A stretch of DNA of 44,592 bases from a virus, in IMG/VR virus record IMGVR_UViG_3300021962_000200, positions 1-44,592 of that record; one strand, written 5' to 3'. Below, in pieces: positions 1-43,302 of the stretch (position 1 is its first letter; each line of letters begins with the position of its first letter). Under the pieces are notes generated by a model, which was not told the DNA's origin, ran no database searches, and saw only the letters and a list, made by a program, of their open reading frames with translations. A program made the translations under genes and the position numbers.

Positions 1-340
1 TATATGCTTCATTGAGTGCAACAATAGGATAAATTTTACTTTTATAAACACGATCACTAATGGCGTCGCGTCCCATGTCCTCAATCTTCCAACAATATTC
101 ACAGCCAGCGGGCCGCTTGCCTGCTAACATTTTTTTACGATCATCCTTCTTTTGTAAACTGTTGTGCAGGGCCCGTGGATTTAGTTTTACTTCGTCTACT
201 TCAACTTTGTGTGCAGGAGGGTGATGACAACTTGTAGTCATTCCGCTGCCAAGCCAGATTGTGGCGTTGTACCATTTGGCTCCGCAAAAACTTGCACTTT
301 TTGAATCAAGTATTTGTTGTTTAAATTCTAAATCATTCAT
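1..340 (-). CDS. Radical SAM 'twitch'-type protein, N-terminal fragment (runs off the window)
   Basis: The reading frame opens at ATG 340 and stays open to the window edge (113 codons), so only the N-terminal part is present. It begins MNDLEFKQQILDSK. It carries the same Cys/His pattern as the radical SAM gene at 1384-2778: an AKW segment, then TTSCHHPPAHK, then NPRALHN, then GCEYCWKIED with a CxxC. The CxxxCxxC iron-sulfur motif expected further on lies outside the window. The start overlaps the end of the preceding gene by 8 bases (ATGAATGA), so it is the next cistron of the same operon. Family assignment is inferred from the in-window paralogue. The substrate is unknown. Confidence 0.7.
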   Translation of the reverse strand, partial: MNDLEFKQQILDSKSASFCGAKWYNATIWLGSGMTTSCHHPPAHKVEVDEVKLNPRALHNSLQKKDDRKKMLAGKRPAGCEYCWKIEDMGRDAISDRVYKSKIYPIVALNEAY

Positions 341-1409
341 TGATATATGTTGTTATAAACTGTTCAAATCGTTTGGAAAATTCTGACCGCACTTTGAGTC
401 GCATGTCGGCAAGATGTTGTTGATTGTATTTACATACATTATAACACTCATTGAGGAAACCAGCAAGGTCTTGTTGACATAGATCTTTTACAATATCAGC
501 AACACGTCGAAGACGATCTTGATCGTTGTCTATTAGATCAAAACTTTCATCTATTGCATGCCCAAATGTTTGAAATCCCAAGTTATGCATGTCTCTATAG
601 AAACCCCGATTGGCAACTGCAATCCAAGGGTGTCCGATTGCCACTGGTTTCCAGATTTTTTCTGTTCTAAAACTGTAGGGATAATTGTGAACTGTTTCAG
701 TCACAAGACTAAAATAAGTGTCACTATATTGTCTAACAGACAGCAATACATCTCCCCATATTCCATTACCGAATAACTTGCTTTTTACATTTTTGTCATT
801 GGTTTGAAAGTTGACATTGAATTTTGCATGTTCATAATATTGGTCTAACAGTTTGATAGGGCCATTACCAGTGTCTAAATTTGTCCATAATGCAGAGTCA
901 AGTAGATCACCCAATGCATGAATCATAAACTTTCTATGATGTCGTTGCTGTCCGTTTAAAAAAAGAAATTTATAAGGTCTATCCGTTGAATATGTGTCAC
1001 GGTACTGTTGTATAGCATCAATGTTTTCGTTGTAATCTAAAACTTTTGGTAAAAAGTTGTCATAGGTCAGATGCGGATATTCTGGTGCAACATCGCCACC
1101 AGTTAATAGCAAAATTTTTTGTTGTTTGATTAAATCAAGAATACCAATATTGCCACAATGATTGAGTATGGTCTGTGATCCTTCAACAGGATTACTAAAA
1201 ATAAACTGTGCTATTTCTGTATTGGCCAGCTGTTTAATTTTATCAACATTTTTAACAGTTTCATTATAGCCTATTACATAAACTGCGTCTGGCTCAATTG
1301 TTTGCTTTTGAAAGTTATAAAAAGTTTCGTCAGAAATCTCTGCCAATTCTTTACGCAATCCGCAATTTACATCAACTATTAATTTACGCTTGCCTAGCAT
1401 GATATTCAC
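333..1409 (-). CDS. Fucosyltransferase/exostosin-like glycosyltransferase
   Basis: A 358-residue protein. The C-terminal third has the signature of GT10/GT47-like nucleotide-sugar-binding domains: an ETVHNYPYSFRTEKIWKP segment with T249-E250-K251, then IGHPWIAVANRGFY and LGFQTFGHAID. In that family the TEK lysine/glutamate region binds the sugar nucleotide. The N-terminal half is less typical. The chosen start is GTG 1409, which has GGTGG seven bases upstream; ATG 1400 is an alternative. It overlaps the upstream radical SAM gene by 26 bases, so translation is probably coupled. The likely role is sugar transfer to a glycan or virion protein in the host cytoplasm. Donor and acceptor cannot be read from the sequence. 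Confidence 0.65.
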   Translation of the reverse strand: MNIMLGKRKLIVDVNCGLRKELAEISDETFYNFQKQTIEPDAVYVIGYNETVKNVDKIKQLANTEIAQFIFSNPVEGSQTILNHCGNIGILDLIKQQKILLLTGGDVAPEYPHLTYDNFLPKVLDYNENIDAIQQYRDTYSTDRPYKFLFLNGQQRHHRKFMIHALGDLLDSALWTNLDTGNGPIKLLDQYYEHAKFNVNFQTNDKNVKSKLFGNGIWGDVLLSVRQYSDTYFSLVTETVHNYPYSFRTEKIWKPVAIGHPWIAVANRGFYRDMHNLGFQTFGHAIDESFDLIDNDQDRLRRVADIVKDLCQQDLAGFLNECYNVCKYNQQHLADMRLKVRSEFSKRFEQFITTYINE

Positions 1410-2778
1410 ATTCTGTCCACCAGGATTTCATTTCTGGAAATGTATTGACAAAGTCTGTGCCGTGCCTGCGGTCAGACTCACTGAAAAAGCGATAGAAGTC
1501 TGCTTTATTCTTTTTTAAATAGTCTTTGTCTAACTGCTGACCATTACGCATCCAAGCAATATCTCGATCCAATCGTGCTATTTCATAATCTTTAAAACCG
1601 TGAAAACGTGTGGCTTCGGTTTCAATATTATCCTGCATGTGAGCTTTGAGTTTTTCCAGTTGCGACACATAGCTTTCCGGAAGGATCTGTAGGCTTTGCC
1701 AAGTAGGTTGCCGCAGAACAGGAGTGTCAAACCATACTCGTTGATATGTATTGCTGTAAGTTTTTCTAAGCTCTAGTATGCCATCGAACAATTGTTGCAA
1801 ACTGGTTACACTTAAATTATTCATTGTAACAATAAATGTCACGCTGTTACGATATGGCACTTCGGTTAAGAACTGATGCACACGCGACCACAGCAACTCA
1901 AAGTCAAGTCCGTGCCGCATATATTCAGCACGTTGTCCCCAGCCGTCAAGGCTGATATACTGCATAAAGTGTTCAAGTACGCCTTCTTGACACAGTTGTT
2001 TGGTATAGCCAAGATATTTCTGCCACAGCTTTTCGTCTACGCTAAAGTTACTAGTGACATTTAGGTGTAGATCAGGCTTGGGATTAGCTAACACATAGTC
2101 AAACACACGGTAAGTGTTTTTGTCCATCATGGGCTCGCCGCCCGTCATGCGAAAATGTTCTAGCTCAGGGTATAGCGTAGGCCACCAAGCCCAAAATGCG
2201 TCCACATACGGGTTACTTTCTCTAGCTGGGATAGGTTTGCGATTACCGGTAAAGTGAGCAGGATCATTATGCGGAGTTGATGTAGGATACGCACCGTGTC
2301 GATCCATTTCCTGTTGCCATGTGGTACTAAACTGTGGACTACAATAGCTACAGGCTAGATTGCAGGCATTGTTAAAATTTACTTCTACATAACTAGGTGT
2401 AATATCTGTATTCCAATCGGACGCAAAAATCTTATCAAAGTCCTTAGCAGCCCAGGGCTCCCCGGATCTATAATGGCGATCACTCAGTTTGCCATTGTCC
2501 TCCATTGTCCAACAATAACTACACTCCGGTGGTCGTTCTTGTTTCATCATAATCTTACGCTGTTGTTTTTTATAGGGCGTATTATGCAATGCACTAGGAT
2601 TTTTTTCTAGTAGAGAAGGATCAATTTGATGTAAGGGCGGGTGGTAACAACTGTTAGTTAGTCCTGTTGTTAAATGCAAACTAACTTGCTTCCATTTAGC
2701 CAAACACATAGCAGTACCTAGATGCTCGCGCATCTGTTCAGCAGAGCTCATGAATCGGCTTTGATCGCCTTTATTCAT
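1384..2778 (-). CDS. Radical SAM protein with twitch/auxiliary Cys region
   Basis: A 464-residue protein, started at ATG 2778, which has GGAG seven bases upstream; a TTG one codon earlier is less likely. The iron-sulfur motif is C139-NLA-C143-SY-C146, the CxxxCxxC that binds the 4Fe-4S cluster cleaving S-adenosylmethionine. It is followed by a glycine-rich RMTGGEPMM stretch, the usual SAM-binding GGEP. An N-terminal region with CYHPP (C44) and a CSYC pair (C86, C89) may hold an auxiliary cluster, as in phage 'twitch' radical SAM proteins. It overlaps the sulfotransferase by 8 bases and lies among glycosyltransferases, so a sugar or peptide-modification role is plausible. The reaction is unknown. 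Confidence 0.85.
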   Translation of the reverse strand: MNKGDQSRFMSSAEQMREHLGTAMCLAKWKQVSLHLTTGLTNSCYHPPLHQIDPSLLEKNPSALHNTPYKKQQRKIMMKQERPPECSYCWTMEDNGKLSDRHYRSGEPWAAKDFDKIFASDWNTDITPSYVEVNFNNACNLACSYCSPQFSTTWQQEMDRHGAYPTSTPHNDPAHFTGNRKPIPARESNPYVDAFWAWWPTLYPELEHFRMTGGEPMMDKNTYRVFDYVLANPKPDLHLNVTSNFSVDEKLWQKYLGYTKQLCQEGVLEHFMQYISLDGWGQRAEYMRHGLDFELLWSRVHQFLTEVPYRNSVTFIVTMNNLSVTSLQQLFDGILELRKTYSNTYQRVWFDTPVLRQPTWQSLQILPESYVSQLEKLKAHMQDNIETEATRFHGFKDYEIARLDRDIAWMRNGQQLDKDYLKKNKADFYRFFSESDRRHGTDFVNTFPEMKSWWTECEYHARQA

Positions 2779-3409
2779 CAAAGTGCTCCAAGGAATATTG
2801 CCAAGTGCCCAGTTGTTCTTTTACGTAATCAAGATTAGAAAACATTTCAGGCAAAGGGAATGAAAATTCATTTTTCTTAAACCTAGTTTGTGTAGAGAAT
2901 GTTAAATCTTCGTAGCACAAATTAAAGTCAGGAAGGAAATAATCGTCTAGCATCTGCTCTAATTTAAACTGAACAATGTCGGAGTTAGATGCTTGAACAG
3001 ATGCAGGGCCGGATCGCATTTTGTCAGCAGTATGATTGTGCCAACCGTACAGAGCAGTTGGATCATTGAGTCTAAAATAAATCCAGCTGGCAAACTGATA
3101 TACTTTGTCCCGGCGCCTAATGTTGACTACTATGTTGTGTTGTTTGATCCTGCTGACATTTTCTGCTAATGTTAACTTGGGGGTCATTTGTACAACTTGT
3201 GCTGTGGTTAACCTAGGGCTGCAAGATAACTTGTCAATGTCATCCCAAGGATTAGCACAATATCCTACCATGCAAATTTCCATTAAACTTGTGCCTTTTC
3301 CTTGTTTACACAGTTCTGCACTTAATGGGTGGGTACCTGATCTAGGACTTTCTATAATTAGAATATTTTTATTTTCTTGAGCAGCACGATTGATTATAGT
3401 TTGATACAT
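2771..3409 (-). CDS. Stf0-like sulfotransferase
   Basis: A 212-residue protein. The start is placed at ATG 3409, spaced six bases from AAGG and sharing a base with the upstream stop (TAATG); an ATG two codons earlier sits on the ribosome site. Near the N-terminus, IIESPRSGTHPL (P22-R-S-G-T26) matches the 5'-phosphosulfate-binding loop of PAPS-dependent sulfotransferases. NIRRRDKVYQFASW resembles the R-x-DK-x-x-QA-x-S block of the Stf0 (trehalose 2-sulfotransferase) family, which contributes to 3'-phosphate binding. Expected chemistry is transfer of sulfate from PAPS to a hydroxyl, most likely of a sugar, given the neighbouring glycosyltransferases. No PAPS synthesis gene is visible, so host PAPS would be used. 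The acceptor is unknown. Confidence 0.65.
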   Translation of the reverse strand: MYQTIINRAAQENKNILIIESPRSGTHPLSAELCKQGKGTSLMEICMVGYCANPWDDIDKLSCSPRLTTAQVVQMTPKLTLAENVSRIKQHNIVVNIRRRDKVYQFASWIYFRLNDPTALYGWHNHTADKMRSGPASVQASNSDIVQFKLEQMLDDYFLPDFNLCYEDLTFSTQTRFKKNEFSFPLPEMFSNLDYVKEQLGTWQYSLEHFDE

Positions 3410-4335
3410 TACCATCCTTCTTGCTGCCTAATTACATCAATCTCTCTCACAGTGACACCACGATTGTGCCAGTTGCTCCGATAGTGATGTTTAAAAAATT
3501 TACTTTGCTCGGGAAACAAACTCATCATTGGTAAGTCAAGTTGTGTATGCAATTCTTCGGCTAGTCGATTAGCTATTAGTTCTGGATCAGAGTCTTTTAC
3601 TGTAGCCCAAATTTCACCAAGCGCATCAAACGACTGTACCAAACGATGATCCCATTCAGTCAGCATAGTCATATAAGTGCCTTGCCTTGCGCCCGCAATG
3701 GCCCACAATCCATAATCAACATCTGATCCCACATTGTGCCATATGGTCAAGTGATCAAGATTACGTTGATGTACGCGATCCTTGAACTCTACTACTGAAG
3801 GACGTGTGCTTTTGTTTAAGCACATTTTTACACCTTCTCGAAAGCCTGCACGCCAAGCGTGAAAGGCTGATCCGTTAGGATAGGTAGTCGAGTAACAGTC
3901 GTGCATGGGCCAGTATAGTGGATCGTAGCAAAACTCTACTTGTGTTTCGTCACGACCGTCGGTATTTTCGTGGGTGCGCATGTTCATAGCAAACTCGCAT
4001 GTCCACGAACTCAGTCCACCATTGCCATACATGAGTCCGTTAATGTGATTCTTTGCCCGCCAACGAAATACCGCCGACTCCCATTGCTCATCGGGCAGTT
4101 CAAGTGTTAGATTAAAAAACTCTGGATCGGGCATGTTGTCCCCATCAATTAGGACAAAGCGTTCAGTATCGCTTGCCTGTGCAGCCGCCTTGTGTGCGGC
4201 GTCGCTGCCTTTAACACCATCTACACGGCGGGCCCACGGGACCATGTTCCGAATTTTTACCCAAAATTCTTCTTTTTGCGGTTCATCATAACTCAAATAG
4301 ATGCAATCAAGATCTGCAATGTCAATCCGTTTCAT
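3409..4335 (-). CDS. Putative GT-A-fold glycosyltransferase with DGD motif
   Basis: A 308-residue protein starting at ATG 4335. The N-terminal half has the layout of a nucleotide-sugar transferase: an opening strand (DCIYLSYDE), a helix, the RRVDGVKGSDAAHKAA region, then RFVLIDGDNMPD with D64-G-D66 as the metal-binding DXD. Later segments (WRAKNHINGLMYGNGG, CYDPLYWPMHD) are rich in aromatic residues and resemble acceptor-side loops. The assignment rests on this pattern, not on a specific family I can name. It overlaps both neighbours (14 bases upstream, TAATG contact downstream), so it belongs to the same transcription and translation unit as the sulfotransferase. Confidence 0.6.
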   Translation of the reverse strand: MKRIDIADLDCIYLSYDEPQKEEFWVKIRNMVPWARRVDGVKGSDAAHKAAAQASDTERFVLIDGDNMPDPEFFNLTLELPDEQWESAVFRWRAKNHINGLMYGNGGLSSWTCEFAMNMRTHENTDGRDETQVEFCYDPLYWPMHDCYSTTYPNGSAFHAWRAGFREGVKMCLNKSTRPSVVEFKDRVHQRNLDHLTIWHNVGSDVDYGLWAIAGARQGTYMTMLTEWDHRLVQSFDALGEIWATVKDSDPELIANRLAEELHTQLDLPMMSLFPEQSKFFKHHYRSNWHNRGVTVREIDVIRQQEGW

Positions 4336-4669
4336 TTGATTTTATATTCCATTTAATATGTGGTTGCTGTTCACTAACAACAATGCTAACATTATCAATT
4401 AAACACGCTGTTCCGCTAGTGCTAGGTATTAGTTTAGTAACTGTTTTCTTTGGTTTTATATGCACTAACTTCCCGTCAATTACACGGACATTTCTTGAGC
4501 TTAGTTGATAAGTTTCTGCATCAATATCTATATAGTTACCTGGCAAATCTTCCATGCTGTAAGATATTGGGCACCCGTCCTCGTCATAGTACAGGCGAAA
4601 AAAGACTGGAGCAGGCGCCGGGGGTGGCTCTGCCCATGCTTTCCAAAAATTTTCTTCAGTTTCGTTCAC
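4322..4669 (-). CDS. Small hypothetical protein in the glycan cassette
   Basis: A 115-residue protein that I do not recognise. It appears to start at GTG 4669 with only a weak upstream GGCGG. The N-terminus has a proline/alanine run (EPPPAPAPVFF) followed by FFRLYYDEDGCPISYSMEDLPG, a mostly beta pattern, and a mixed C-terminus with PSTSGTACLIDN. No signal peptide or membrane segment is visible. It overlaps a glycosyltransferase at each end by 14 bases, so coding status is well supported by context. It may be an accessory or adaptor protein of the cassette, but that is only guilt by association. Confidence 0.6.
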   Translation of the reverse strand: MNETEENFWKAWAEPPPAPAPVFFRLYYDEDGCPISYSMEDLPGNYIDIDAETYQLSSRNVRVIDGKLVHIKPKKTVTKLIPSTSGTACLIDNVSIVVSEQQPHIKWNIKSNETD

Positions 4670-5408
4670 GCAACCGCCAGTCTTTGTTGTGATAATGCAC
4701 CAATCCCCATTGTGCTACCGTTTGTATTCGGATGCCAGGATTGACGTTTTCCCATACTAATTCTTTGGTCCAGTCACTGGTATGGGTTGGGATGATTCCT
4801 TGTTTCATATGTACTATAGTGGGACCATAACCGGGTGGTAATGTTACTTGTTCTCGCCCTATGATGTCAGCAGCCATGGCATAAACAACATCTGTTGATG
4901 GTGTTTCTTCGGGAAACTTTAACAGCGTTTTAAACTCGTTCCAATTTTGGAAGATATCACGCACCCATTGAAAAAACTCTTGCGCTGTTTTACTCAACCG
5001 CCAGTAGGTTATAGCATTATAAACATCGGGCAAATTGTTAGCATCAAACAATTTTCTATAATGCCGATTGCTGCTGTGCTGATCGTAAAAGTCCCTACAA
5101 CCTTGGCTAATGACCACGTCACGATGTTCAAACAATGTCCACAAGTGATCTATGGGACTGGCTGCAATCATATCAGCTTCTAACTTGATGGTTTGTCTAT
5201 ATGGGCTGGCGCGAAACACTTGCCAGTCGTTAGCAAAGCCACCAAGATCACCGTGCGGCAACATTTCTTTTGTTAGTATTGTGATTTCAGCAGAGGGATG
5301 CCATGACCGTATGCTGTCAGCAAGTTGATGGGCGCAGGCTACATAGTCAACACTATCAGTGTTGATAGCGGGAATTAGATAACCGCGTTCAGCAAGGATT
5401 GGCAACAA
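4656..5408 (-). CDS. Putative GT-A-like glycosyltransferase, paralogue of the next gene upstream
   Basis: A 250-residue protein. No ATG is available near the start. An AGGAG lies three bases before TTG 5408 and six before TTG 5405, so initiation at a TTG inside the end of the preceding gene is likely. SVDYVACAHQLADSIR aligns with HIDYVAMANWSANNIH of the 5389-6192 protein, and both continue into a strand (ITILTK / CLVTDR) typical of GT8-like nucleotide-sugar transferases. A degenerate metal-site motif, LEADMI (E77-A-D79), stands where the paralogue has LDADY. Loss of the first Asp may mean altered metal use. Function is inferred as sugar transfer with unknown substrates. Confidence 0.6.
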   Translation of the reverse strand: MLPILAERGYLIPAINTDSVDYVACAHQLADSIRSWHPSAEITILTKEMLPHGDLGGFANDWQVFRASPYRQTIKLEADMIAASPIDHLWTLFEHRDVVISQGCRDFYDQHSSNRHYRKLFDANNLPDVYNAITYWRLSKTAQEFFQWVRDIFQNWNEFKTLLKFPEETPSTDVVYAMAADIIGREQVTLPPGYGPTIVHMKQGIIPTHTSDWTKELVWENVNPGIRIQTVAQWGLVHYHNKDWRLRERN

Positions 5409-6192
5409 TTGCTCCTAGTTGTTGTTTACCCATAGCGTGAAAGTCTTGGTGTAATTCAATGTAGCGTGGCTTTTGATCAGGTGTTAAAAAATCCACACGA
5501 TAAGAATCTTGAGACAATTGTGTTACTTGATGCTCGGGTGTTACACTTACTAAACTTCCAGGCATAGACGGCACCGAAAGCGTGTGACCGTTTACTATAT
5601 TTAACGCAATCGAAAGCGCATGATCATTTCTGTAGTTAGGCGTTGGGTTATTGTACAAACGACGGTAATGAAGCCAATTGTCGCGGACCATGTTCATAGA
5701 TTCAAATATCAGTTGTGCTGTATTACTGCGTTTAAACATCATAACAGTGGCCCACCACATGGGCATGCGATTTTGTCCAAAATAATTTAAATCATCAAAG
5801 TTTCTAAGATTTGTAGCATCGCTTGCCCAACGATAGCATAAAAAATCTTGATTGCTACTCAATACAGTTTTAAGTTGGTTCGACGCTACCACATAGTCAG
5901 CATCTAGCACTAGTGTTTGATCCCATGGACTGAGTGTGTAAGCATCTACACGATTGGTATTGTGCCAAGCAACTGATTCACCAATGTCTACAAAATGTCT
6001 TACGCCACTGCCAGTAGGAGTGTCAACTAATACAACACGATCAAACACATGCCCTGCCGGGGGTTCACGATCTGTTACTAAACAAACCGGAATATTCAGA
6101 TGCCTGTGTATATTATTTGCTGACCAATTGGCCATTGCCACATAGTCAATATGTTCATTGTTGAACGCAAATATTAATGCGCCGCAGGTCAT
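5389..6192 (-). CDS. Putative GT-A-like glycosyltransferase with DAD motif
   Basis: A 267-residue protein starting at ATG 6192, overlapping the preceding gene by the classic ATGA. The N-terminal strand (ALIFAFNNEHIDYV) and the block TLVLDADYVVAS with D97-A-D99 fit the DXD of GT8-like or related nucleotide-diphospho-sugar transferases. Further on, MPMWWATVMMFKRS and NDHALSIALNIVNG resemble the acceptor and return-strand regions of such enzymes. It is paralogous to the 4656-5408 product. It is the second cistron of the decoration operon. The sugar and target are not identifiable here. Confidence 0.65.
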   Translation of the reverse strand: MTCGALIFAFNNEHIDYVAMANWSANNIHRHLNIPVCLVTDREPPAGHVFDRVVLVDTPTGSGVRHFVDIGESVAWHNTNRVDAYTLSPWDQTLVLDADYVVASNQLKTVLSSNQDFLCYRWASDATNLRNFDDLNYFGQNRMPMWWATVMMFKRSNTAQLIFESMNMVRDNWLHYRRLYNNPTPNYRNDHALSIALNIVNGHTLSVPSMPGSLVSVTPEHQVTQLSQDSYRVDFLTPDQKPRYIELHQDFHAMGKQQLGAIVANPC

Positions 6193-6491
6193 CGTTTTTT
6201 GTTTAGTTTGTCGTATTCAACTAACCAAGCGTTCATTTGCTCCTGCCAACGACTAACAACAATGCTCCGGAGTTCAGCAGTATTAACTTGTACTGGAGTT
6301 TCATACAAGTCTAGTATTACCGCTGTTTCTGGGCAAGTTGATAACAAGGACAATAATTCGGGACCTGCATTCCACATGCCGCCGTTGTGGGCAAACAGCA
6401 TTTTGGCTTGATATTTTTCTTTGAGAAGTCGGCGCCCTGTTGCATGTTCAAAACGAGCGCGGGCGGTTTTGACTAATTGTTCATTATTCAT
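6189..6491 (-). CDS. Small conserved phage protein, first gene of the left operon
   Basis: A 100-residue protein. The start is ATG 6491; an upstream TTG in frame (6515) would lie inside the promoter and is rejected. It contains LKEKYQAKMLFAHNGGMWN, then PELLSLL and VILDLYETPVQVN, and ends in a helical RWQEQMNAWLVEYDKLNKKR. I recall proteins with this pattern as unassigned small proteins in marine T4-like phages, but no function is known to me. It is mostly charged and soluble, with no membrane segment. As the leader cistron of the glycosyltransferase operon it is coupled to the next gene by a 4-base overlap. Confidence 0.75.
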   Translation of the reverse strand: MNNEQLVKTARARFEHATGRRLLKEKYQAKMLFAHNGGMWNAGPELLSLLSTCPETAVILDLYETPVQVNTAELRSIVVSRWQEQMNAWLVEYDKLNKKR

Positions 6492-6497
6492 AGGATT

Positions 6498-6526
6498 ATT
6501 ATACAGGAAAGGCAACTAAAAGTAAA
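6498..6526 (-). promoter_or_regulatory. Sigma70-type promoter giving a leaderless transcript for the left operon
   Basis: On the minus strand a perfect -10 TATAAT (6498-6503) is preceded, after 17 bases, by TTTACT (6521-6526, 4 of 6 to the -35 consensus). Only six bases (AATCCT) separate the -10 from ATG 6491, which places the expected +1 on the A of the start codon. The -35 overlaps the downstream arm and U-tract of the structural-operon terminator. Confidence is moderate because the -35 is imperfect. Confidence 0.55.
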
Positions 6527-6544
6527 GGGCCCGAAGGCCCTTTT
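6516..6544 (-). terminator. Rho-independent terminator of the late structural operon
   Basis: A perfect 8-bp stem AAAGGGCC / GGCCCTTT with a C(UUCG)G tetraloop, followed on the minus strand by ACTTTTAG. It lies 20 bases after the stop of the last structural gene (6565) and is the clearest hairpin in the window. On the plus strand it is followed by only TGG, and no plus-strand gene ends there, so it serves the minus strand. Confidence 0.85.
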
Positions 6545-6564: not shown

Positions 6565-7557
6565 TTAAGCTGTAGTAGCTGCAATAGTCGGTGTGCCCCA
6601 GCTATTACTTAGGTATGTGGTACTTGGGTTGAAATAAGTGACCACAGTAGCAGGTGCTGTACCAAATACGCTAAATGGCGAATTGGTAGCAGTACCGCCC
6701 GAAATAACGTTATTGCCGCCGGGAGCAGGGTCGCCGCCTGGGTCAACCCAAGTGGTAGTTAGGACCAGTTGTGTGCCTGTGCCGGCTGTTTTGGCGTTGA
6801 TAGCAATATACTGACCAGTATAAGGAGCAGTATCAGCATACTGACGATAAATCAGTGTATCGCTGGTTGTTAAATCATACCAACCAGTTGTAGTTAAAAG
6901 CGTATCGGGTGTGCCAGTGCCGCCTGATTTGGTTGTACCAGTGTAGGAGCCGCCAGCAATAGTTTGTGTGCCAGTGCCGCCAGTGATATAAATGTCGCCT
7001 ACTAGTGTGTTGGCTAAGTCGTTCCATTCGGCATCACCGTCGTTACCAGTGGAAGTTTTGCTGGTTTCCCACTTGATACGGCCGCCAGCATTGAAAAAGT
7101 AACGTGCAGCGTCTGCAGAGGCCCATGTAATAGTGTGCGTAAATGTGATAGTCCACGCGGCGTCGCCAGATCCAGTTGTAGTTGTTTTGGATGTTGTGCC
7201 TGAAAATGTGGTGTATTGTGCGCCACTGGCTACTGCATTACCGCGATTGGTTGTACAATTGGTCAAGTCTGTGTTAAGTGCCGCTAAAATTGCAATGGTA
7301 CTACCAGCAGTTGGGTTGGCTCTGGAAGTGATCGTGGTGCCTGTGTGACTGGCAAGTGAACTGATTGTGTTGTTTAGCGTGGCCCATTGTGTGGCTGTGA
7401 TAGTGGCTGCTGCGGATACGGTTGACAATGCTGATTGTCCGTAGCCTTTATCACTGGATCCAGTGCTCCAAATGTCGTTTACGTTAGCACCTGCGTTTGT
7501 GCTAACAAAGCCATTATAGTCTGTTGCAACTATTGTACTGCCTGCTGTATATGTCAT
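6565..7557 (-). CDS. Virion structural / tail-fibre-like protein, Thr/Gly/Ala rich
   Basis: A 330-residue protein starting at ATG 7557 behind AAAGGGAAAACGAAA. The composition is dominated by Thr, Ser, Gly and Ala with almost no Cys, typical of secreted-like beta-rich phage fibres. Strands alternate with short Gly/Thr loops (TGGTGTQTIAGGSYTGTTKSG). The central part reads ADAARYFFNAGGRIKWE. There is no signal peptide or membrane segment. It is the last gene before the structural terminator, a usual place for fibre or adhesion proteins in this phage group. It may be a distal fibre or virion decoration protein. The exact location is unknown. Confidence 0.6.
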   Translation of the reverse strand: MTYTAGSTIVATDYNGFVSTNAGANVNDIWSTGSSDKGYGQSALSTVSAAATITATQWATLNNTISSLASHTGTTITSRANPTAGSTIAILAALNTDLTNCTTNRGNAVASGAQYTTFSGTTSKTTTTGSGDAAWTITFTHTITWASADAARYFFNAGGRIKWETSKTSTGNDGDAEWNDLANTLVGDIYITGGTGTQTIAGGSYTGTTKSGGTGTPDTLLTTTGWYDLTTSDTLIYRQYADTAPYTGQYIAINAKTAGTGTQLVLTTTWVDPGGDPAPGGNNVISGGTATNSPFSVFGTAPATVVTYFNPSTTYLSNSWGTPTIAATTA

Positions 7558-7648: not shown

Positions 7649-8932
7649 TCAATTAACCTTAACAATAGCCTCCACTGTTCCTTGCTCTTGTGTTAATTTA
7701 TCATGCAATGCACGACCAATAACATTAAAAGCCGTTGCTTCACCTGCTTGTGCGGCTCTTGCAAGTCCGTTACCAGCAGATACAAGACGATCTCCTTTGC
7801 GTATAGTTCCAATAGTGTTAACCGGGACGCGGCCTGTCATTGCGACAGCAGGGTGTGTTGCGTCAGTTCCGGCAAGACTATTCATCAGATACGCTGCTCG
7901 TGTACTTATGATACCAAACACATTATCGCTTAGTTCGGCAGCCACTTTTGTGATTTCTTTGTCGCCACCTAACTCAACAACGGTACCTGCTTCAAGGATT
8001 TCGTCGGCTTCAAAGCGTTCAGCAACGTCAGCGTATTGGGCATTAATATTTGTGCCACTGATAGTACCAGTTGCACCATTAATGGTCATAACTGTAGTTG
8101 GTGTACCAGCAATATTAACGTTAAATGATATGTTGCCATTGCTGGTTTGATTGTAAAATGTAGCAGTTGTTCCCGCAACACCTAACCGTATATCTTGATT
8201 TGAGCCTACTGATAAACCAGTGTTGTTTAACACAGCAAATGTACCAGTTGTAGTTTCAGCTACGTTTTTCAATAAAAAGTCTGAAGGATCATAGCCTTCA
8301 AGTGTCTGAGCAACTGATGCTGTACCTTGGAATAATGGTACTTGTGAGCCAACTAGTGTGCTTAATGTAATACCAGGACGTACTGTAGTAAATCCGCTAA
8401 TTGTTGATCCTGGAGTAAACGCAGCATCTTTGCTGATAATACCAACAATGTCGTCTTCTACATACAATTTGATTACCACGTGATCAACAGCAACGTTGTC
8501 TGTAATAGTGTCAGCAATAGCGCCAGTTGTACCTTGTCCCGAAGTAAATGCAGGGCCAACTAGCAACCAAGCACTGCCTGTCCAAACTTTAAGCTGGGCA
8601 TTAACTGTGTCAAACCACAAATCACCAGTGACATTATTTCCGGTGGGCGCACTTGATTGTGCTGTTGTAGATGAAATTACTTTCCAGGTAGCACCGTTGT
8701 AAACTTTCATCAATCCAGCAGTACTATCCCACCAAAGTTGTCCAGTTAATGGTGCCCCGGGGGCAGTAGTGTTGGCTGAATTTTCCAACAAGTGAACAAA
8801 GTTTTCATCTAAAAATTCACCATAACCAGCGTAATTTTTACCAACCAGTACCATTGAACTGGAAGTATTAATGGTACCATCTGCTATAGTAGCAAAGATT
8901 TGACCATCTGTTAAGTTAATTGTATATGCCAT
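7649..8932 (-). CDS. Tail-fibre-like protein with a peptidase-G2-like C-terminal domain
   Basis: A 427-residue protein. After an N-terminal beta region (MAYTINLTDGQIF) come two copies of a short module, GQLWWDSTAGLMKVYNGATW and GDLWFDTVNAQLKVWTGSAW, separated by about 35 residues. From about residue 298 the sequence QYADVAERFEADEILEAGTV, then VFGIISTRAAYLMNS and NVIGRALHDK, resembles the autoproteolytic or chaperone-type C-terminal domain (Peptidase_G2-like) of phage fibres and spikes. Whether it cleaves itself cannot be judged. A late-type promoter motif lies 22 bases upstream and GGAG precedes the ATG. It is likely a trimeric fibre. The ligand is unknown. Confidence 0.65.
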   Translation of the reverse strand: MAYTINLTDGQIFATIADGTINTSSSMVLVGKNYAGYGEFLDENFVHLLENSANTTAPGAPLTGQLWWDSTAGLMKVYNGATWKVISSTTAQSSAPTGNNVTGDLWFDTVNAQLKVWTGSAWLLVGPAFTSGQGTTGAIADTITDNVAVDHVVIKLYVEDDIVGIISKDAAFTPGSTISGFTTVRPGITLSTLVGSQVPLFQGTASVAQTLEGYDPSDFLLKNVAETTTGTFAVLNNTGLSVGSNQDIRLGVAGTTATFYNQTSNGNISFNVNIAGTPTTVMTINGATGTISGTNINAQYADVAERFEADEILEAGTVVELGGDKEITKVAAELSDNVFGIISTRAAYLMNSLAGTDATHPAVAMTGRVPVNTIGTIRKGDRLVSAGNGLARAAQAGEATAFNVIGRALHDKLTQEQGTVEAIVKVN

Positions 8933-8954: not shown

Positions 8955-8962
8955 TATTTATG
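8955..8962 (-). promoter_or_regulatory. T4-late-like promoter motif CATAAATA
   Basis: CATAAATA on the minus strand matches 7 of 8 bases of the T4 late promoter TATAAATA recognised through gp55. It lies 22 bases before the ATG at 8932 and overlaps the stop codon region of the preceding gene. The short AT-rich motif could occur by chance, but the spacing agrees with the copies near 27576 and 35784. Confidence 0.45.
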
Positions 8963-9578
8963 CCGCACTAAGGTTCGTTAAAGTTTGAATACGAATCGTA
9001 TAGTCAATTTGTATTTGTCTATTCAAACTTTTTTGTACTGGGTGGAAGATTACATGGGTAATCAATCGCAAATTTGTAGCACTTCCGTTCCATGTTTTGA
9101 GCCCTAGTTCATCAAATACATACTCCCCATTAAAATTTGTGCTATTATCAAATGCTTGTTGTCCCGGGGGTTCGCCGTAATCTAACAAGCATGTTACCAA
9201 AATATCTGTGTATACTTTTCCCGCTGTGTGTAGTACTGTCATTTTGTTGTTGGCGGCATCAGTATTAGCAGCAGAATTGTCATCAACTACTTTAGAGTAA
9301 GTTTCGTTGTATAAATTAGCGTTTTGTCCCACTGTATTTGGGGGCAAATAGGTAATAATACCAGTGGGATCTACTGTGGATCCGCCGTTACCAAACGACA
9401 TAGAATATATCCAGCCGCCACCTTGCGCAGAAGTTCTGTTGCTTAGTGTCTGCGCCATAGCATACGAAATATTTTCATAGTGAATAGCGTTCTTTTTATC
9501 CACAAATATTTCGCCAGAAGCAGGATCGTGTATTTTGACAAATCCTTCAATTTTGGCTAGACCTGGCTGAATTATCAT
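8958..9578 (-). CDS. Virion structural protein, beta-rich, function unknown
   Basis: A 206-residue protein starting at ATG 9578, overlapping the 45-residue gene upstream by ATGA, with GGAG ahead. Residues 9-35 (KIEGFVKIHDPASGEIFVD, then KKNAIHYENIS) repeat the theme of that mini-gene. The rest is Asn/Thr/Gly rich (FGNGGSTVDPTG, VTCLLDYGEPPGQQ) and ends in a strand-like IQIDYTIRIQTLTNLSAA. This looks like a fibre-attachment or baseplate-peripheral protein of T4-like phages. I cannot name it. Its place between the giant protein and the fibre genes supports a virion role. Confidence 0.55.
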   Translation of the reverse strand: MIIQPGLAKIEGFVKIHDPASGEIFVDKKNAIHYENISYAMAQTLSNRTSAQGGGWIYSMSFGNGGSTVDPTGIITYLPPNTVGQNANLYNETYSKVVDDNSAANTDAANNKMTVLHTAGKVYTDILVTCLLDYGEPPGQQAFDNSTNFNGEYVFDELGLKTWNGSATNLRLITHVIFHPVQKSLNRQIQIDYTIRIQTLTNLSAA

Positions 9579-9728: not shown

Positions 9729-12700
9729 TTATTCGCCCCGTAAAAACCTTGCTGCATCTGTGTCAGTATCTTGTAGCGCAACACCGTTACTGGGCGTTCC
9801 TACACCAGGTGCGTACCACGTTACTCCGCGGCGTACTAATATTGCTACTTCGGACCCGTCTGCTGGGGCAGTATCAAATTCTACGGTTACAGGATTATCA
9901 CTTGTTATTGTATAACCACTTGTTTGTAATGTACCGCCTACATACACTTCAACTGCTGCTGCTGTACCTGTAGCATCTATTTCGTTGGCAATAAACGTTG
10001 TAGTAGATCCGTCCCCAAGATTAACACCTGATTCTAACGGATTGGTGATGTTGGAAACAACATAGTTTTGATATTGAGGCAGCAATAAATTGCCGCGGCT
10101 GATATCATAAACATCAGATCCTGTGGCGTGATCGGCTGCACCAGTACCAGCAGTACCACGGCGTAATCCACTAATAGTGTTGTTGACTGTATTGCGTGTG
10201 CGATACATAATTCTTTCGCCATTAATGGTCAGCAATCCCCAAACATTACCAGGCAAGTTTGGCTCGCCAAGTGCGGCAGCATTGTACACATAAATTACAT
10301 CATCAGTTGCACCAAGAGGTTGAGTCAAGTATGTAGTAGTTGCTGGTGTAATACGATACGTTGCTTGTACGCCGCGCATGTCTTGGAATATGCGGAATGC
10401 CATTGACTCGGGTGCAATACTCGATGTAAATTCAGTAATCATTATTACATCAGTGGGGGATAAAATGTAACCACCTGCTAGTATAATTTCATTGTTGACA
10501 ACGGTATAATCAACGTTGTTGAATATTAATTCTCCATTTAACGTGACAAACAATCGATCTGCATCAACATTTGCGTGGCTAAGGAATAAGTTGTTTAGAG
10601 AAACTGCTTGAGTTTCGCTGTAATCAAATGATCCTGGGTCGCCAGTAACAGTTCCAACGTCATACCCAAGGCTGTCAAATGGTTCCACGTTGGTTTGCTC
10701 GCCGCCTACAGAACCTACATATACCTGCGTCAGTATATTTTGCTGCCGTGTATCATTCCAACTGGTTACCGTAATGATATCGCCATCAGATGGAACAAAC
10801 CCACCATATTGATTAAACAACAACTGGTTACCTGTTACAGTTGCTTCCGCATCAGTAGTGACACAAATTAAAATTCGTTCGCCGGACGATGGTGTGACTG
10901 CAAATTGTACTGCTCGACGATCTTCAGGATGTAGAGGATCATATGGCTCAACCAAATAATCTATGTTAAGTATCTGTGGAATGTCATCTACATACACACG
11001 AACTTCGTTGTCAGCAATAATTTGTTGACTAAATCCTAAACGAGTCGGCAACCAATATTCGCTGGTACCGTCAGCATAGTACTCTGCACCAGCAGAAGTT
11101 CTAACACGTTGTCCGTTGATAGTAATGTATAGGTTGTCGGGATTGACATATTCCATACTGTTGGTTAGTGTGTACAGGTATTGGTCAGCAACACCAACAA
11201 TGTATTGCGTAACTGGCACTGACCAACTGTAATCAACAGTTGTTTCGTCAATTGTGGTTGGGCCAATGGCTGCGATCATTAGATAATCGTCTGCGGTATA
11301 AGTGTCACCAAAAGTCAATAAGGTACCAATTCCATCTTGAGCATATGTATAATTGGTAATCAACACGCCATTGACAAATATAACAAATTCTTCAATCAAC
11401 GAGTATTGTACCGGCACTACTAAAGAGTTACCAACTTCGTCGCCGTTGTATGGCTGTTTAAACAACTGATTGCCGCCACCAATTTGATATAAAGAAATTA
11501 CAATTTCGTCACCAGCAGTAGCACCGGCGATTACGGTAATAGAACTATTGGCCCAATCGGCTGTGTAGTCTGTACCAACGTGCAACAACAAGCCTGTAGT
11601 TTGGTTGGCAACCAGCATAGTAGCCGGAACTGGTGTTACACCAGCAAAGCTAAATGTGTCGGGGGTAGCAGTAACGACATATTTCTTAACTTCAATGCGG
11701 AATCCGTGTCCATCGCGTGCCCAATCAGCGCCCGGAGTTGTGTAAACACGTAGATCAAGTGTGTCAAATTCGCTGCCCGGAATTAATTCTTCGGGTGCGT
11801 GGCTTGAATACGTGTCAATATATGCACCACCGTCAGCATTAATGCTTGTGGGTAGTATACCTAAATATATGTCACTGTACTCGCTGGTGTATATGGCATC
11901 TAAAATAGATTGATCATACGTTGGTTGACCTTCGGGCCCAAACGTCACGTTGTCAAAAGGTGCAGTATCATACGGTAAAAGATCAAATCCTGGATATTGA
12001 TTGTATCCCACGCCATACATTTGTACCCCAGGATATTCAATACCGTTAATCAACAAAGGCAAACTTAACCCAGTCTGGTTGGCAGTTGGTGTATAAAAAC
12101 CCATTGTACGGTTAACACCACTTAGGAATGCTGGATTGACCGCTGTCCATTCGTCAGGATCAAATGTGCTGCTTTGAACAGTAGAGTTAGCGGACCATAC
12201 GCGATCTAAATAGCGCACAAGTGTACCCGCGCTGTATTCTGTATCTGGTTCCCACTCAACAATATCAGACGAGTATTCATAACGGTCATACTTGATAACT
12301 GTAGTAAACTGTCGTACTAAACTGTTGCCCATTGTTACCGCAGCAGCAGCACCAGTACCGTTACCGCCAGTGAACGTTATTATGGCTGTGCTTGTGTAAC
12401 CACTGCCATAGTTGTCAATGATTACGCCAGTAACTTGTCCAGCGCCATTGATTATAGCTGTCATTTCAGCAGGTTCAACACATTCGCCAGTAACAGTAAT
12501 CACTGGCGCTACAGTATAGCCAGAACCACCATTGGTGATCACAACACTTCGAATGCTTAATGTATAGTTGTTATACCATTCATCCCACGGTGTTTTGGCC
12601 CATAGTGTTGAGTTTGACGGCGTGTCAGCATTAAAGTTGGTATTGCTGACTGCTGTTGACTGAGTGTACGGCAGTAGCACGGGACTGATAAATTCAGGCA

Positions 12701-15700
12701 CAGTTAGCGTGGAATCCCAGTATGCTGGCAGGTCAAAGTCAGTAACTGATCCAGGATACTCGTCAATGCCATTGTAAGATAAATTAAACTCGCGTATTTG
12801 CGTGTGGTAAGGTTTAACTTCTTGAATATAATTCAAAACAAAATCTTGATTGTCTCTGTTATAGAACTCATAAGGACGCAGACTGCGAATCTTATGATCA
12901 ACGTCAATCAAGCTGGTTTTTATTAACCATTCAGGTGCAGCAAATTCGCTCATAATGTATTCAAACATCAATACCAGTGAGCGATTGCGTTCGATCAATA
13001 GTTCGTCGACAAACAACTGTTCATTGATTGCTTGAATTATTTTACGTGTTTCAATTACTGGTTCTTGATCAAAATATTGAGAGTCAAAAACTTCGTTGTC
13101 AAAACCAAACCTGGCGCCACTGTAATTGTAATTCCAAAGTGCTTCACTGAATTCAATTGTGCCATCTTCAAGTCCCACACGATCCCATCCAAGATCAGTG
13201 CGTTGATAAATTTCAAACTTGCCTGTGGCCAATTGATTAGAAACCTTGACACTTGATCCAACAGGTGCTACTCCAAGTGTAAGTCCCGATAGTCCAGCAT
13301 AATTGGCCACTGTGGCCACTGGATTTTGTGTTTTGTTATATCCAGGCAGATACCAATCAATATAACTCCAGTAGCGTCGTGTGTCATAATTTTGAACACG
13401 TATTAGTGCCAGTTCTTTAGAGCTCAGTAGTGCACCGGCTACAACTTCGTAAATTGTCCACAAACCCGAGTTGCTTGAATCGGACGCTACCAAATACTTG
13501 TATCCATATGGAACAATAGTTAAATTTTGATAGCTTAATTCAGCAAGGTCAACCACCCGCTTGTCCCACGCTCCGGAACCGGGTGTGGGTTCGGGCTCGC
13601 TGCTGTTAAGTAGTGTAAAGCTCTTGGATTCGGATATTGGATATTGTGCCAACACAGCATTGGCTCGTCCCAAATAGTTTTTCAGTGCCGAAAAACGGTC
13701 AACAAACATACTTTGGCGCGGGCGGAATGACACACCATAACGCATAGCTGGACTTAAACCAACATCTGGAACGTTGGCACCGACTACGTTGATGCCCGAG
13801 AAACTGTCTTGCAGTTTTAGATACAAATTATCACTTAAGAAACTGTCAGCACGATCTGCTGCAATTAACTCATATTCTTGGTGGACATTGTCATTGTTAG
13901 CCAGGCGGTCATACTCAATGTGCAATATAGTATCTTGAGCACTTATTAGGTCAAGCACATTGTAGATAGCCACTGTGCTTGCATTCAGCGGTGCAAGATA
14001 TGCAATACCGCTGGCACGAGGATACTCAATGTAATTGGCAATAGCAGTGGTGCTGAGTTTTTTGCCAGCAACAGTATTAACTGTGGAAATATTTCTCACC
14101 CAGAAATAATACCGAGTAGCAAAAATATTTTCAGAATTTAATTCAACACGAGTGGTATAACTCAAAAAGCTCAGCGGTGTTCCGGGTCCTGTATAATTGG
14201 ACGGGGGCACCGTGCTTTCAATCCACTGATAGATATCAATCCTACTGCCCGGGAATGTCTGTCCCCAGCGACGGCTGGCGTACACAATGTCATCTTGATT
14301 GGGATCAATAAAGCGCACTGAGTTAGTGTCCCACCAAATTTGTCCCACTCTGGATGCACCCCAAGGATTGCCTACATTGCGAATTGGCCCGTTGCTGTAA
14401 TTGGCTGGATCAACTGCTCCAATGTAATCAATGTTTTCACGAGCCACACCCAATATTTTGCCCTGTAACGGATTAAAGAAATCCAAGTAGTTGGTAGTCT
14501 GCGACTCCAACTTGTCATACATATAAACAGAGTTTAACAAAGCTACATCTACTACAGGTGTCTGCTGATGTTTAACTGTCCATGCTGGTATTCTTGTGGG
14601 GTTGTCATATATGACTACTTGACCTGTATTGTCAAACTGGGCGTCTTCAAATTCGTTGCCGGGTGCACCAACAAGCAACTTACCAGTAATGTAACTGAGT
14701 CCCGTGCCATAACCATCAAGTTCATGTGTTAAATTGTTGTACAACTGTTGGCCAAATACAAATTTTCCAGGATTGGTAACTGTGTCAGCAGCACTTGGCA
14801 AGTAATCAAATGTGTAAGCCACACCGCTTTGTACAATAGTAGTTGAGAACACCGTACTACGATCATCAAAGTAAGTGGTATTGTTATCAAATGTTACTGG
14901 CTCATACATATTACCATTGGGCGCACCAACGACCAAAGTCAGCGCAGTTGAGTCAACGGTTAGGCTGGATCCAAAGCGAGCAAATTGTGTTGGATTGGGG
15001 CTGGTAATTGTTTGCGTATAAGAGTAATTGACAAAACCAATATCAGCAAACGCAGTACCCAATATTCCGGGCAGTACATTTAATTTTGTTCCGGGTAATG
15101 CAGCAGCAGAATTTATAACTCTTATGGTCAAGATGCCCGACACCACACGAATTACAGTATTGTCTGCAGGATTTGTCGCAAATGTAATGATGCCAGTACT
15201 GTTGTTGTAAGTGTAATCAACGCCCAACACTTGTAATACATCGTCAGCATACACCACTGGCGTATAATTGTCATACTGAGAATATGTTACACCAATGTCA
15301 AAAGTTTTAGTAAAGCCGTTGGCAGTAAAACGCAAATCATCACTTACGGTTGCTGTGACATTTGGTATGCCAATGCCATTGTTGGTGCTATTGATTGCGC
15401 TTGCTAAACCTGCTACGGTGTTATTTGGGCTGGCTGGAACAGCAACTTCATAGTTGTTAACACGAATTGTATCTCCGCTTGTTAACACTGGATTGGCTAC
15501 TGGAGATGAAATTATTCCATAAACACGAGCTTGGTTTACATTGCGTTGAACAGCACCAGAATTGTTGTTGGTGTTTTGTGGCTCACCTGAATAGATGCTG
15601 CAATTTTGACTGCACAAATCTACAGCCCAACCAAGTTGTGCTTGATAGATGGGACTGTTGTCGGCTGTTTGATTTAGCGAATCCCAGTCAGTAGTAGTTA

Positions 15701-18700
15701 CAATTTGTTGTACAAATTTAAAGATATTGCTTTCAACTTCAACAACATCACCAACTGCCAATGTTACGGCACTGGTTAGCACAACATCATTGCCAATTAC
15801 TTGGAAACCACCGTTAATAAAATAATCTGCGTTGGTTAAAAATACACCATTGATCAGTACGCTAACTGGTGATTGCCATCCAGCGGGTAAACTAAAAGTT
15901 GTTGTACCTGTGTCGCCAATACCAATTTGATATCTTAGTACACTACGATCATACACATAGGTACTGCCAGATTCTAATGCATTAACAACCGCAGTTGGTG
16001 CGCCAACGACCACTTGCCGCCCATCAGTAGATGAAGCAACGCTGTAGCCAAAATTAGCACTGCCAACAGGTCCTGTAATCTTACTAATGTATTTGAAATA
16101 TGTTGCAGCATAAGCCATTATGACTGCGTTAGGAGCTGGATTGGTGGCTGGTTTAAATGTAACTGTGGTTCCAGCAAATGTATAGTCAATGTATGGACGC
16201 TGAAGCTGTCCATTTACACTGAGTCTAAATGAATCAATGTCAGTTGCTGTGTACAAATATTCTGACAAGTCAAAATTATCAGTGTTAGCAACTCCAGATC
16301 CCGATGGCGTAAATGTAACAATACCGCCAACTGTTACTGTATCAACAGTAATAATCAAGTCATTAGCCGGTGATGTTCCCCCACCAATAGTGGCAGCATT
16401 AATAGTCAGTGTATCACCAATGTTATAGTTCAAACCAGGGGCAATCAACGAAACAACATAAGTTCCGCGAGTGCGGTCAACTGTGAATGTTGCTTCTGAT
16501 CCACTACCAGATGTAGAATCTTGAGTCACTCCGTAGTAAACTCGATGATCAAGTTGTGCTGACTCGCGCTTTGCTATTACAATTCTTAAATCAGAATTTG
16601 GCGCCTCATTAAACACTACTGAAGTATTGCTTACTGTGTAATCGATTCCTTCAAATTGTGCTGTGTTGTTGACTACAACTACCAATTGGTCAGGTTGTGT
16701 ATAATCAATGATAATTGAATTAGAATAGTTATATTCTTGCGTTACACCGTCAGAAATATAATTTACAGATTGTAGTGTTGTGTCTACGCGGCCATAAGCA
16801 TAAACGGCATTTTCATCAGGTGCGCCAACATAAACAATACGTTCATCTTTGCTAATTGCAACTGCGTGACCAAAACTGCCGGCACTTGAAACATAATCAG
16901 GTGCTACTAAAAGTTGTGCCTGTGTAAATCTTCCATCTTCATTTCTGTTGATAACAGAAGCGTATCCAACTCCAGCGGCACTGAGGCTTGCACCAGCTAC
17001 TCCCCAGGTTTGATCGCCAAAATCAAGGGCATTACCATATCCAAGAGTGTCGGGCGCATTTAAAAATAATAAATTATCTTCAATGTATGTATTGCCTTCG
17101 CCACGAACATAAGGATATAGAACACCTGTTTCAGTACTTGTTGAATCATTGTAGTATGTGGGGGCGCCGACCAGTGCACCCAAGTTGTTATATGTTTGAG
17201 CAACACTGGTGCCATAGCCAGCGTTTTCCACTGGCCTTTGCTGTGTTAATGAAAAACTGTCGTCAAATACATTTTGTTTTTCTAACACTTGCCACAGTCC
17301 CGAGCCATTGTTATCAACCCAAGCCAATGAGCCGGGTGTTAAATCGTTAGCGTATGACAATGTGGTAATGTCACTGGCTTGAGATACACGCATAGTATCC
17401 AGGAAAAAGCCCAGGCCAGTGCCCGTTGCGACTGTTTGATTGCCGTTGGGGAAGACATAAGCAACTGTTAGTGTAGTGGGTTTTGGTGTAGTTAATACAC
17501 GATACACACCATTAAAGGATTCATTGAAATAGCGCACAATCAACAAGTCTCCACGACGCAGATTGTGCACGGCCGAGAATGTTACTAAACTTGTGCCGTC
17601 AAGATTATCACTGACACGAGTAACCTTACCCGGAGTTTGAGTTGCGCGATATACATTCCAATCATAACTATTGGTTTTGGCTACCCAAATTCTCGTGCCA
17701 TCGCCTACATTGTCAAGATCCGCAGCAATAGCACTGGGATCATCTAAAGAAAATACTGTAATATCAACGTCATCAATATTAACATAGCCTGCGCTAGGCA
17801 AAGCAGTATCTGTGTCAACTGTGGTAGTTGTGGGTAAAATATCTGGAGAAGTTAATTTATAACTTTCACGCCAAACATCATTTAATAACACCGTTTGGTT
17901 GGCCACGCTTGACTCACCAACTTCAATCACTTGTATGGTAGCAGGATCGCTTTGTAGCAATGCTTCGTTTAGTCTTAATTCAAAATAGCTGCGATTTGCA
18001 TTGGCACCATATGTGCCGCGAAGAATTGCCCAGTTTTCATAAATTTTGTAGTCAGCAACTTCTTTGCCAAGATTGGCGCCGGTGAATATTTCGGCACTTA
18101 ATACTGTGCCTTTGCTCCTGATAAATTGTTGATACAAGTTAACTTGACTAACATCGTCAAGATTTAACGCTGCCATATACTCGCGGGGCTGGAAGCCAAT
18201 TAAGCCATAACTTAATAAGTCATTGTCGCGTTCAAGATTGGCAGTTTGCGTATTGTAGCTGTTGGCCAACTGATCAGCTTTGTTGGCAATATTAGGCAAC
18301 AAGCCTTTTTGTATTTTGGTGTAGTCACTCTTGACCCAATCAGAGTAAACAAATTCTCTCTTGGGCTGTACAATTGTTTCTGCTGACCAATAGGTGTTTT
18401 TATAGTTGACAATTTCACCTTTGGCATATTTCCGATTGGGTGCCCACGGCTGCACATTATCTTGATTGAGCACAAAGCCTTGAGCATTTAGCGTGCCATC
18501 CCACTCAGTGGTTGTCATAGCTGTTACATTAACGCGATTTTGTCTTGCACCAGTGGTGGGGTTGTAAATCAAGTCTGAAAAGATACTAACATTGTCAAGG
18601 ATCACAAGATTTTCGTAGCTGGTATAACGCAAATTGGCATAGGCAATAGCTTGGCCATTGGCGCTGGTAACACTAAATCTATTTTCTAACCGTTCAATGA

Positions 18701-43301: not shown

Positions 43302-43302
43302 G

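Follow-up and report, generated by a model that had tools for sequence, protein, structure and literature searches.

A jumbo-phage operon with a conserved core and a refilled slot, and its possible role in glycan modification

Directly downstream of the fibre genes of an uncultured T4-like phage lies an operon in which genes for glycosyltransferase-like and radical SAM proteins keep a nearly invariant order around a slot that is refilled with low-G+C genes and that, in this phage, holds the gene of a predicted Stf0-type sulfotransferase. The longer operon, the start of which is the cassette described here, is present in hundreds of uncultured phage contigs of IMG/VR, the largest of them of ~320-340 kb. 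It appears probable that the phage uses the operon to decorate its own fibres or the host surface chemically. Our fuller proposal, that this is a separate operon building or editing a glycan, with a fixed core and a swap slot, and acting likely on the fibres, is put forward tentatively, with a chance that we place a little short of even.

The cassette and its surroundings

The window, that is, the whole 44.6 kb stretch of DNA analysed here (virus record IMGVR_UViG_3300021962_000200), belongs to a T4-like jumbo-phage lineage, with the operon located in the structural-gene region. The gene content of this fragment includes baseplate genes, the late sigma factor gp55, gp46/47, and a giant ORF. 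The gp6-type protein is ~34% identical to gp6 of Agrobacterium phage Atu_ph07 and of other jumbo phages, and in Atu_ph07, the giant structural gene also comes after gp6, the same arrangement as in the window. Three fibre-cluster genes on the minus strand (f2, f4, and f3) immediately precede the cassette, which consists of nine consecutive ORFs on the same strand, from position 6491 down to position 2 at the contig edge. From upstream to downstream, the features are:

9729..24143, minus strand: giant ORF, 4804 aa, upstream of f2; compare the giant virion structural protein after gp6 in Atu_ph07
8958..9578, minus strand: f2, 206 aa, member of the fibre cluster; phrog_11259 at 7e-72; order conserved in relatives
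7649..8932, minus strand: f4, 427 aa, fibre-type with a Peptidase_G2-like end; PHROG tail/structural matches; PF11962 at 5.9e-6
6565..7557, minus strand: f3, 330 aa, fibre-like, 31% Ser+Thr, directly upstream of the cassette; candidate acceptor
6524..6543, minus strand: perfect intrinsic-terminator hairpin AAAGGGCCTTCGGGCCCTTT, parting the fibre genes from the cassette; many relatives have a similar element in the f3-orf1 gap
6498..6503, minus strand: TATAAT, a -10-like box whose end lies 6 nt ahead of the orf1 ATG
6189..6491, minus strand: orf1 (o1), 100 aa, first cassette gene, core; present in 103/107 loci
5389..6192, minus strand: orf2 (A), 267 aa, GT-A-like (DADY), core; D97 and D99 invariant
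4656..5408, minus strand: orf3 (B), 250 aa, GT-A-like (KLEAD), core; phrog_1903
4322..4669, minus strand: orf4, 115 aa, detected in 105/107 loci; function not assigned
3409..4335, minus strand: orf5 (G), 308 aa, GT-A-like (IDGDN), strongly conserved; its 3' end adjoins the variable slot
2771..3415, minus strand: orf6, 214 aa, slot 1 cargo; predicted sulfotransferase distantly related to Stf0
1384..2781, minus strand: orf7 (R1), 465 aa, N-twitch radical SAM protein; NF033640 319.9 bits
333..1409, minus strand: orf8 (X), 358 aa, GT-B-fold glycosyltransferase-like; AF2 pLDDT 91.5
2..340, minus strand: orf9 (R2), first 113 aa of another N-twitch radical SAM protein, truncated where the contig ends

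An earlier, sequence-only reading had described the same composition, and what we find is indeed a predicted sulfotransferase distantly related to Stf0, a pair of N-twitch radical SAM proteins, and four glycosyltransferase-like genes, with a GT-B-type model for orf8. The nine genes overlap as that reading had it, the successive overlaps being 4, 20, 14, 14, 7, 11, 26, and 8 bases, so the range is 4 to 26 rather than 1 to 26. The cassette is only the start of the operon, which runs on past the window end with more radical SAM genes. No Pfam, PHROG, or NCBIfam family was matched by orf1.

The terminator and the -10 box suggest that the operon is a separate, leaderless transcript. The TATAAT box, with at most one mismatch, lies ahead of 85 of the 89 non-redundant orf1 genes, at a distance of exactly 6 nt in 61, compared to 1-40% upstream of other genes, and a 6-nt gap between box and ATG is the geometry expected if transcription starts at the ATG. 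The T4 late promoter TATAAATA was rejected as a signal, being absent from the window, with the shorter TATAAAT at chance level.

A conserved core and a refilled slot

Scans of IMG/VR with orf5 and orf7 yielded more than 400 relatives each, and we retained the 80 best of each scan; the loci, chosen by similarity to either protein, form a non-redundant set of 107 (orf5 less than 98% identical). ORFs in these loci were called mechanically, so that overlapping genes can drop out, as the sulfotransferase gene did in one case (L005). Across the 107 loci, the order fibres-orf1-A-B-(orf4)-G hardly varies, which bears out the expectation of a gene order conserved in relatives and indicates that the cassette is not a chance array. 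No inserted gene is found at the f2-f4, f4-f3, f3-A (orf1 allowed), and A-B junctions in 99-100% of the loci, nor between B and G in 85% (n=107). The G-R1 junction is interrupted in 67%, by 1.4 genes on average and by up to six. Past the window end, the usual order is R2-R3-R4-R5-u351-carbamoyltransferase, where some members may be missing; R5 and u351, a protein of unassigned function, are unseparated in 59/59 cases. The downstream core comprises up to five orthologous radical SAM genes and the GT-B gene, often joined by u351 and a NodU-like carbamoyltransferase.

Slot 1, the interval from G to the first radical SAM gene, has 41 different contents in 105 loci. Two loci (L086 and L092) with 97.8% nucleotide identity in G (orf5) and 92.4% in R1 nevertheless carry there, respectively, a single SGNH-type gene (assigned by eye) and four other genes, and an orf6-related sulfotransferase gene occupies the slot of L072 where that of its close relative L048 is empty. 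Slot cargo has a G+C content on average 9 points below that of G (n=147); in the window, orf6 has 37.8% against 45.7% for orf5 and 42.7% for orf7. When the sulfotransferase family was the only query, without orf5 or orf7, the scan recovered seven loci, with the gene in the G-R1 slot in all seven. A second, Stf0-matching family was found in 15 loci, chiefly elsewhere in this operon and in about six cases in unrelated contexts. The sulfotransferase is optional cargo, present in ~10% of the loci and not part of the core, so the sequence-only picture of a single sulfating assembly line does not hold for the family. Other families of the cargo and the tail include NAD-dependent epimerase (Epimerase), UDPG_MGDP_dh, GHMP kinase, DegT aminotransferase, CTP_transf, and carbamoyltransferase, alongside Stf0, and one slot family has a weak, aspartyl-hydroxylase-like match (Asp_Arg_Hydrox, 0.02). 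Cargo family 15 was considered as a sulfotransferase and left unclaimed (hhalign 1.4% against the Stf0 family).

Predicted enzymes of the operon

On its own, orf6 matches no Pfam family at E<=1. Its profile, however, aligns over 177 columns with that of a neighbouring cargo family (hhalign 97.6%, E 4e-12) which, in turn, matches the PDB entries for the NodH LPS sulfotransferase (7.5e-4) and Stf0 (1TEX, 3.4e-3); one member of this Stf0-like family exceeds the Pfam Stf0 cut-off, and an orf6 homologue in another locus (L032) shows a weak Sulfotransfer_3 match (0.0037). The PAPS-site residues, whose absence from a structure model had been named as a refutation, are there as sequence motifs in register with the Stf0 relatives. 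The 5' phosphosulfate loop RSGTH (R25, S26, G27, and T28) is kept in 4/4 close members, with R25 and G27 invariant across eight sequences of the family, and the 3' phosphate site R-x-D/N-x3-Q-x2-S (R101, D/N103, Q107, and S110) is aligned with that of the Stf0-like cargo family. The AF2 model of orf6 is poor (pLDDT 61), and its best Foldseek matches (E 0.08 at best) are P-loop kinases with some sulfotransferases. By profile linkage and motif register, then, orf6 is a predicted distant Stf0-type sulfotransferase, a remote relative and no curated member: it shares both motifs with Stf0 (PF09037; 1TEX) and the NodH-type LPS sulfotransferase (9vki) but, unlike Stf0, is shorter (214 aa) and connects to Pfam via the second cargo family only.

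We found no tblastn match among cultured phages (INPHARED, 50,697 records) for orf6, the Stf0 cargo family, A, f3, or G, and no report of phage sulfotransferases in the literature searched, which covered open-licence papers. In one locus (L215), the gene 3' of the sulfotransferase matches APS_kinase (3.6e-9; PDB 2yvu, 4.9e-6). We dropped it as a sign of PAPS supply because its family is widespread in viruses (more than 430 viral relatives, some in isolates) and rarely near sulfotransferases, the flanks examined containing an orf6-type gene in 2 of 80 loci and an Stf0-type gene in 6 of 80.

The radical SAM protein orf7 is a full-length N_Twi_rSAM, far above the NF033640 cut-off of 170 bits; a point of difference from NF033640 in general is that members of as many as five paralogous clades share an operon here. 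Since the record stops at base 1, orf9 is matched (76 bits) over no more than positions 2-88 of the 398-position profile, and its counterpart R2 is complete in a relative (L004, 11489-12820). The CX3CX2C motif of orf7, CNxxCxYC (C134, C138, and C141), the GGE at 208-210, and the N-terminal cysteines C20, C39, C81, and C84 are invariant among 15 diverse relatives. Weak profile matches connect the N-twitch proteins to the structures of BtrN, viperin, and MoaA; BtrN is a twitch radical SAM enzyme acting on a cyclitol. In a tree of 146 proteins, R1 forms one supported clade, and R2-R5 fall into largely separate clades, with low support for R2 and a few odd rows breaking up R3 and R4. A marine contig (L177) holds one member near each clade, so the R1-R5 set probably predates the split between its lineage and those of the window type.

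Near-complete genomes encode between 7 and 17 full-length N-twitch proteins over the curated cut-off in total, operon copies included, and the dispersed copies sit beside gp23, terminase, gp46/47, and UvsX-type genes. Outside the lineage, orf5-type genes lie beside or near N-twitch radical SAM genes on Bdellovibrionota chromosomes, one of which carries about fourteen such genes within 30 kb, and on another, an R1-like gene adjoins a u351 homologue. In the cultured Vibrio phage K566, five N-twitch-type genes adjoin GT8-like and GT4-like genes (the transferases assigned by eye), at 161.5-168 kb and 177.9-180.2 kb of OZ196521. Vibrio phage K567 likewise shows radical SAM matches. Together, these neighbourhoods make transferase and N-twitch radical SAM a recurring pair. 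Obvious polysaccharide genes were not seen by eye in the Bdellovibrionota clusters, which, together with the dispersed copies among ordinary phage genes, implies that the radical SAM proteins need not act on sugars. Their role is the weakest step of a glycan explanation.

Among the transferases, orf8 yields a confident model (AF2 pLDDT 91.5), the Foldseek matches of which are mainly GT-B glycosyltransferases at modest scores, including FucT (2nzx, probability 0.92, TM 0.44-0.46), none with E<=0.001; the model supports a GT-B-fold, glycosyltransferase-like enzyme. Homology between orf2 and orf3 is apparent (hhalign 98.7%), and both share with orf5 a DxD/ExD motif (DAD in orf2, EAD in orf3, and DGD in orf5), the second D of which is the sole invariant column across 35 homologues; GT2 matches are weak and occur in a few of these. 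There is no HMM match for orf2 and, for orf3, a weak similarity to a protein of Synechococcus phage ACG-2014f. PDB profile searches returned nothing significant for orf2, orf3, orf5, orf6, orf8, or u351. The HMM assignment of each transferase that had been called for did not materialise, as orf2, orf3, and orf5 lack a firm match to any GT family, and we refer to them only as GT-like, of apparent GT-A type.

Possible functions and counterparts

The closest known counterpart is the hypervariable host recognition cluster of pelagimyophages, with fibres, glycosyltransferases, and radical SAM cassettes, for which host O-chain modification has been suggested (PMC7029224, 2020). As in those T4-like phages, transferases (GT8-type in pelagimyophages; PMC7029224) and radical SAM cassettes that vary between relatives accompany tail fibres in the region, and the window operon shows this same pattern of fibres, GTs, and radical SAM genes in a variable island of a T4-like structural region. 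Unlike the pelagimyophage cluster, it has a fixed core order with up to five orthologous N-twitch genes, cargo gathered mainly in a single slot, a terminator and a -10 box that are both conserved, and genes for sulfotransferases and a carbamoyltransferase, and its largest contigs measure ~320-340 kb; the word "sulfotransferase" is absent from the main text of the pelagimyophage paper (PMC7029224). The pelagimyophage cluster lies between VrlC and gp14, and no gp14 gene was identified in the window. The window operon is a jumbo-phage variant in which both core and slot are defined, which has transcription signals of its own, and which carries sulfotransferases as cargo. Mycobacteriophages, in which phage GTs have been linked to glycans of virion proteins (Freeman et al. 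2023, as cited in PMC12619734), offer a further parallel in the transferases, although the citing passage of PMC12619734 mentions no radical SAM or sulfotransferase part.

A glycan is the most economical and likely substrate, given that the cargo and tail of relatives include enzymes of NDP-sugar metabolism, carbamoyltransferase, and sulfotransferases. The sequence-only notion of glycan building thus largely survives by way of this sugar-enzyme cargo, and obligatory sulfation does not. Core and cargo proteins almost all lack membrane segments by hydropathy, and we saw among them neither a flippase nor a polymerase nor a membrane enzyme of the Gtr type. Such proteins are better suited to soluble acceptors in the cytoplasm than to an O-antigen system of the Gtr type, though they may act on LPS, and the position and Ser/Thr content of f3 would favour fibre decoration. 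Within the cytoplasm of the infected cell, the transferases would attach a short sugar to an acceptor, most likely the Ser/Thr-rich fibre proteins encoded alongside; the radical SAM enzymes would epimerise, deoxygenate, or oxidise positions of this sugar; and the slot enzyme would attach the variable last group, in this phage sulfate with host PAPS as donor, which would give related phages different surface chemistries. That the transferases and five radical SAM enzymes build a modified glycan on the tail fibres, with the slot setting the last group, here sulfate, is unlikely to hold in every one of these particulars. We know of no phage that sulfates its own virion, and this would be the first such case.

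The same enzymes could remodel the LPS or capsule of the host during infection, with sulfate on an outer sugar, to exclude rival phages or keep released virions off debris. The authors of the pelagimyophage study proposed just that for the GTs of the host recognition cluster (PMC7029224), the closest solved structure to the Stf0 family of the cargo bears the name of an LPS sulfotransferase, and one such genome has, at another place, genes for heptose-type supply (HldE-like, by eye). Yet the lack of any O-antigen-type membrane GT, flippase, or polymerase in core and cargo and the nearly invariant linkage of the operon to fibre genes make this a doubtful, if real, possibility.

In another scheme, the radical SAM proteins would modify side chains of a fibre protein, in the manner of RiPP maturation, and the transferases and cargo would decorate the same residues. 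SPASM/twitch radical SAM enzymes often have peptide substrates, up to five of them follow here in fixed order with f3 directly upstream, and the aspartyl-hydroxylase-like cargo would be at home in such a pathway. NDP-sugar enzymes and carbamoyltransferase in the cargo speak against it, as does the core, where, short of a systematic search, no small ORF resembling a precursor was identified, and we judge it quite unlikely. It is improbable that radical SAM, GT, and cargo genes simply collect separately behind a fibre operon, each with a role of its own: the many slot contents and the dispersed N-twitch genes would be explained, but not the core junctions that are almost never broken or the order and largely one-to-one R1-R5 orthology kept even in L177. 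Finally, phage GTs can glycosylate DNA, which the sequence-only reading had listed as a target, but with no base-modifying gene noticed in cassette or cargo, nothing there that points to DNA, and a sulfotransferase, carbamoyltransferase, and fibre linkage that give no hint of it, DNA hypermodification is very hard to credit.

The N-twitch radical SAM proteins would gain a concrete genetic context in their transferase neighbours, which recur on Bdellovibrionota chromosomes and in Vibrio phage K566. If the proposal of a glycan-modifying operon with a swap slot is correct, surface chemistry would be a swappable trait of a widespread lineage of uncultured phages, comparable to the exchange of fibre tips, and the contents of the slot, such as sulfotransferase, epimerase, and SGNH-hydrolase-like genes, would predict that chemistry.

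N-twitch radical SAM genes in phages and Bdellovibrionota

In the near-complete phage genomes (the 317-340 kb IMG/VR contigs behind loci L020, L037, L101, L045, L055 and L078), the count of N-twitch radical SAM genes scoring over the NCBIfam cut-off ranges from 7 to 17 per genome. Many copies in these contigs are single genes amid core genes, such as those for gp23, terminase, gp46/47 and UvsX. About 14 N-twitch radical SAM genes lie within 30 kb on a Bdellovibrionota chromosome (L207, L208; G011:C1:741000-779000), a stretch with no obvious polysaccharide genes.

Genes at the end of the window and their counterparts

39621-41554, +, pair of SPASM-type radical SAM genes that overlap each other, immediately 3' of gp46
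41599-42027, +, SegE-type GIY-YIG homing endonuclease adjoining this pair
42421-44439, -, PNP-type phosphorylase, 111-aa protein and arginine-deiminase/amidinotransferase-like protein
L171 14362-15438 and L209 13558-14640, Bdellovibrionota counterparts of the SPASM-type genes, by eye

By eye, Bdellovibrionota radical SAM clusters include a gene resembling the SPASM-type pair. The arginine-deiminase/amidinotransferase likeness is weak; a homologue of this protein, also recognized by eye, lies beside a radical SAM gene in Bdellovibrionota (L208 9167-10243) and is seen again as a cargo family (L095 20285-21304).

The L215 fusion, and start codons of slot cargo

L215 6607-7413, fused APS-kinase-like P-loop and nucleotidyltransferase-like domains

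This fusion, which directly follows the sulfotransferase gene in locus L215, is very common among viral contigs and also occurs in a few Stenotrophomonas/Xanthomonas phages.

Several slot cargo genes, in the window (3409-3415) and in relatives, start with ATG-GTA-ATG, overlapping the conserved final codons of orf5 (GGATGGTAATG). The pattern looks like insertion that preserves translational coupling.
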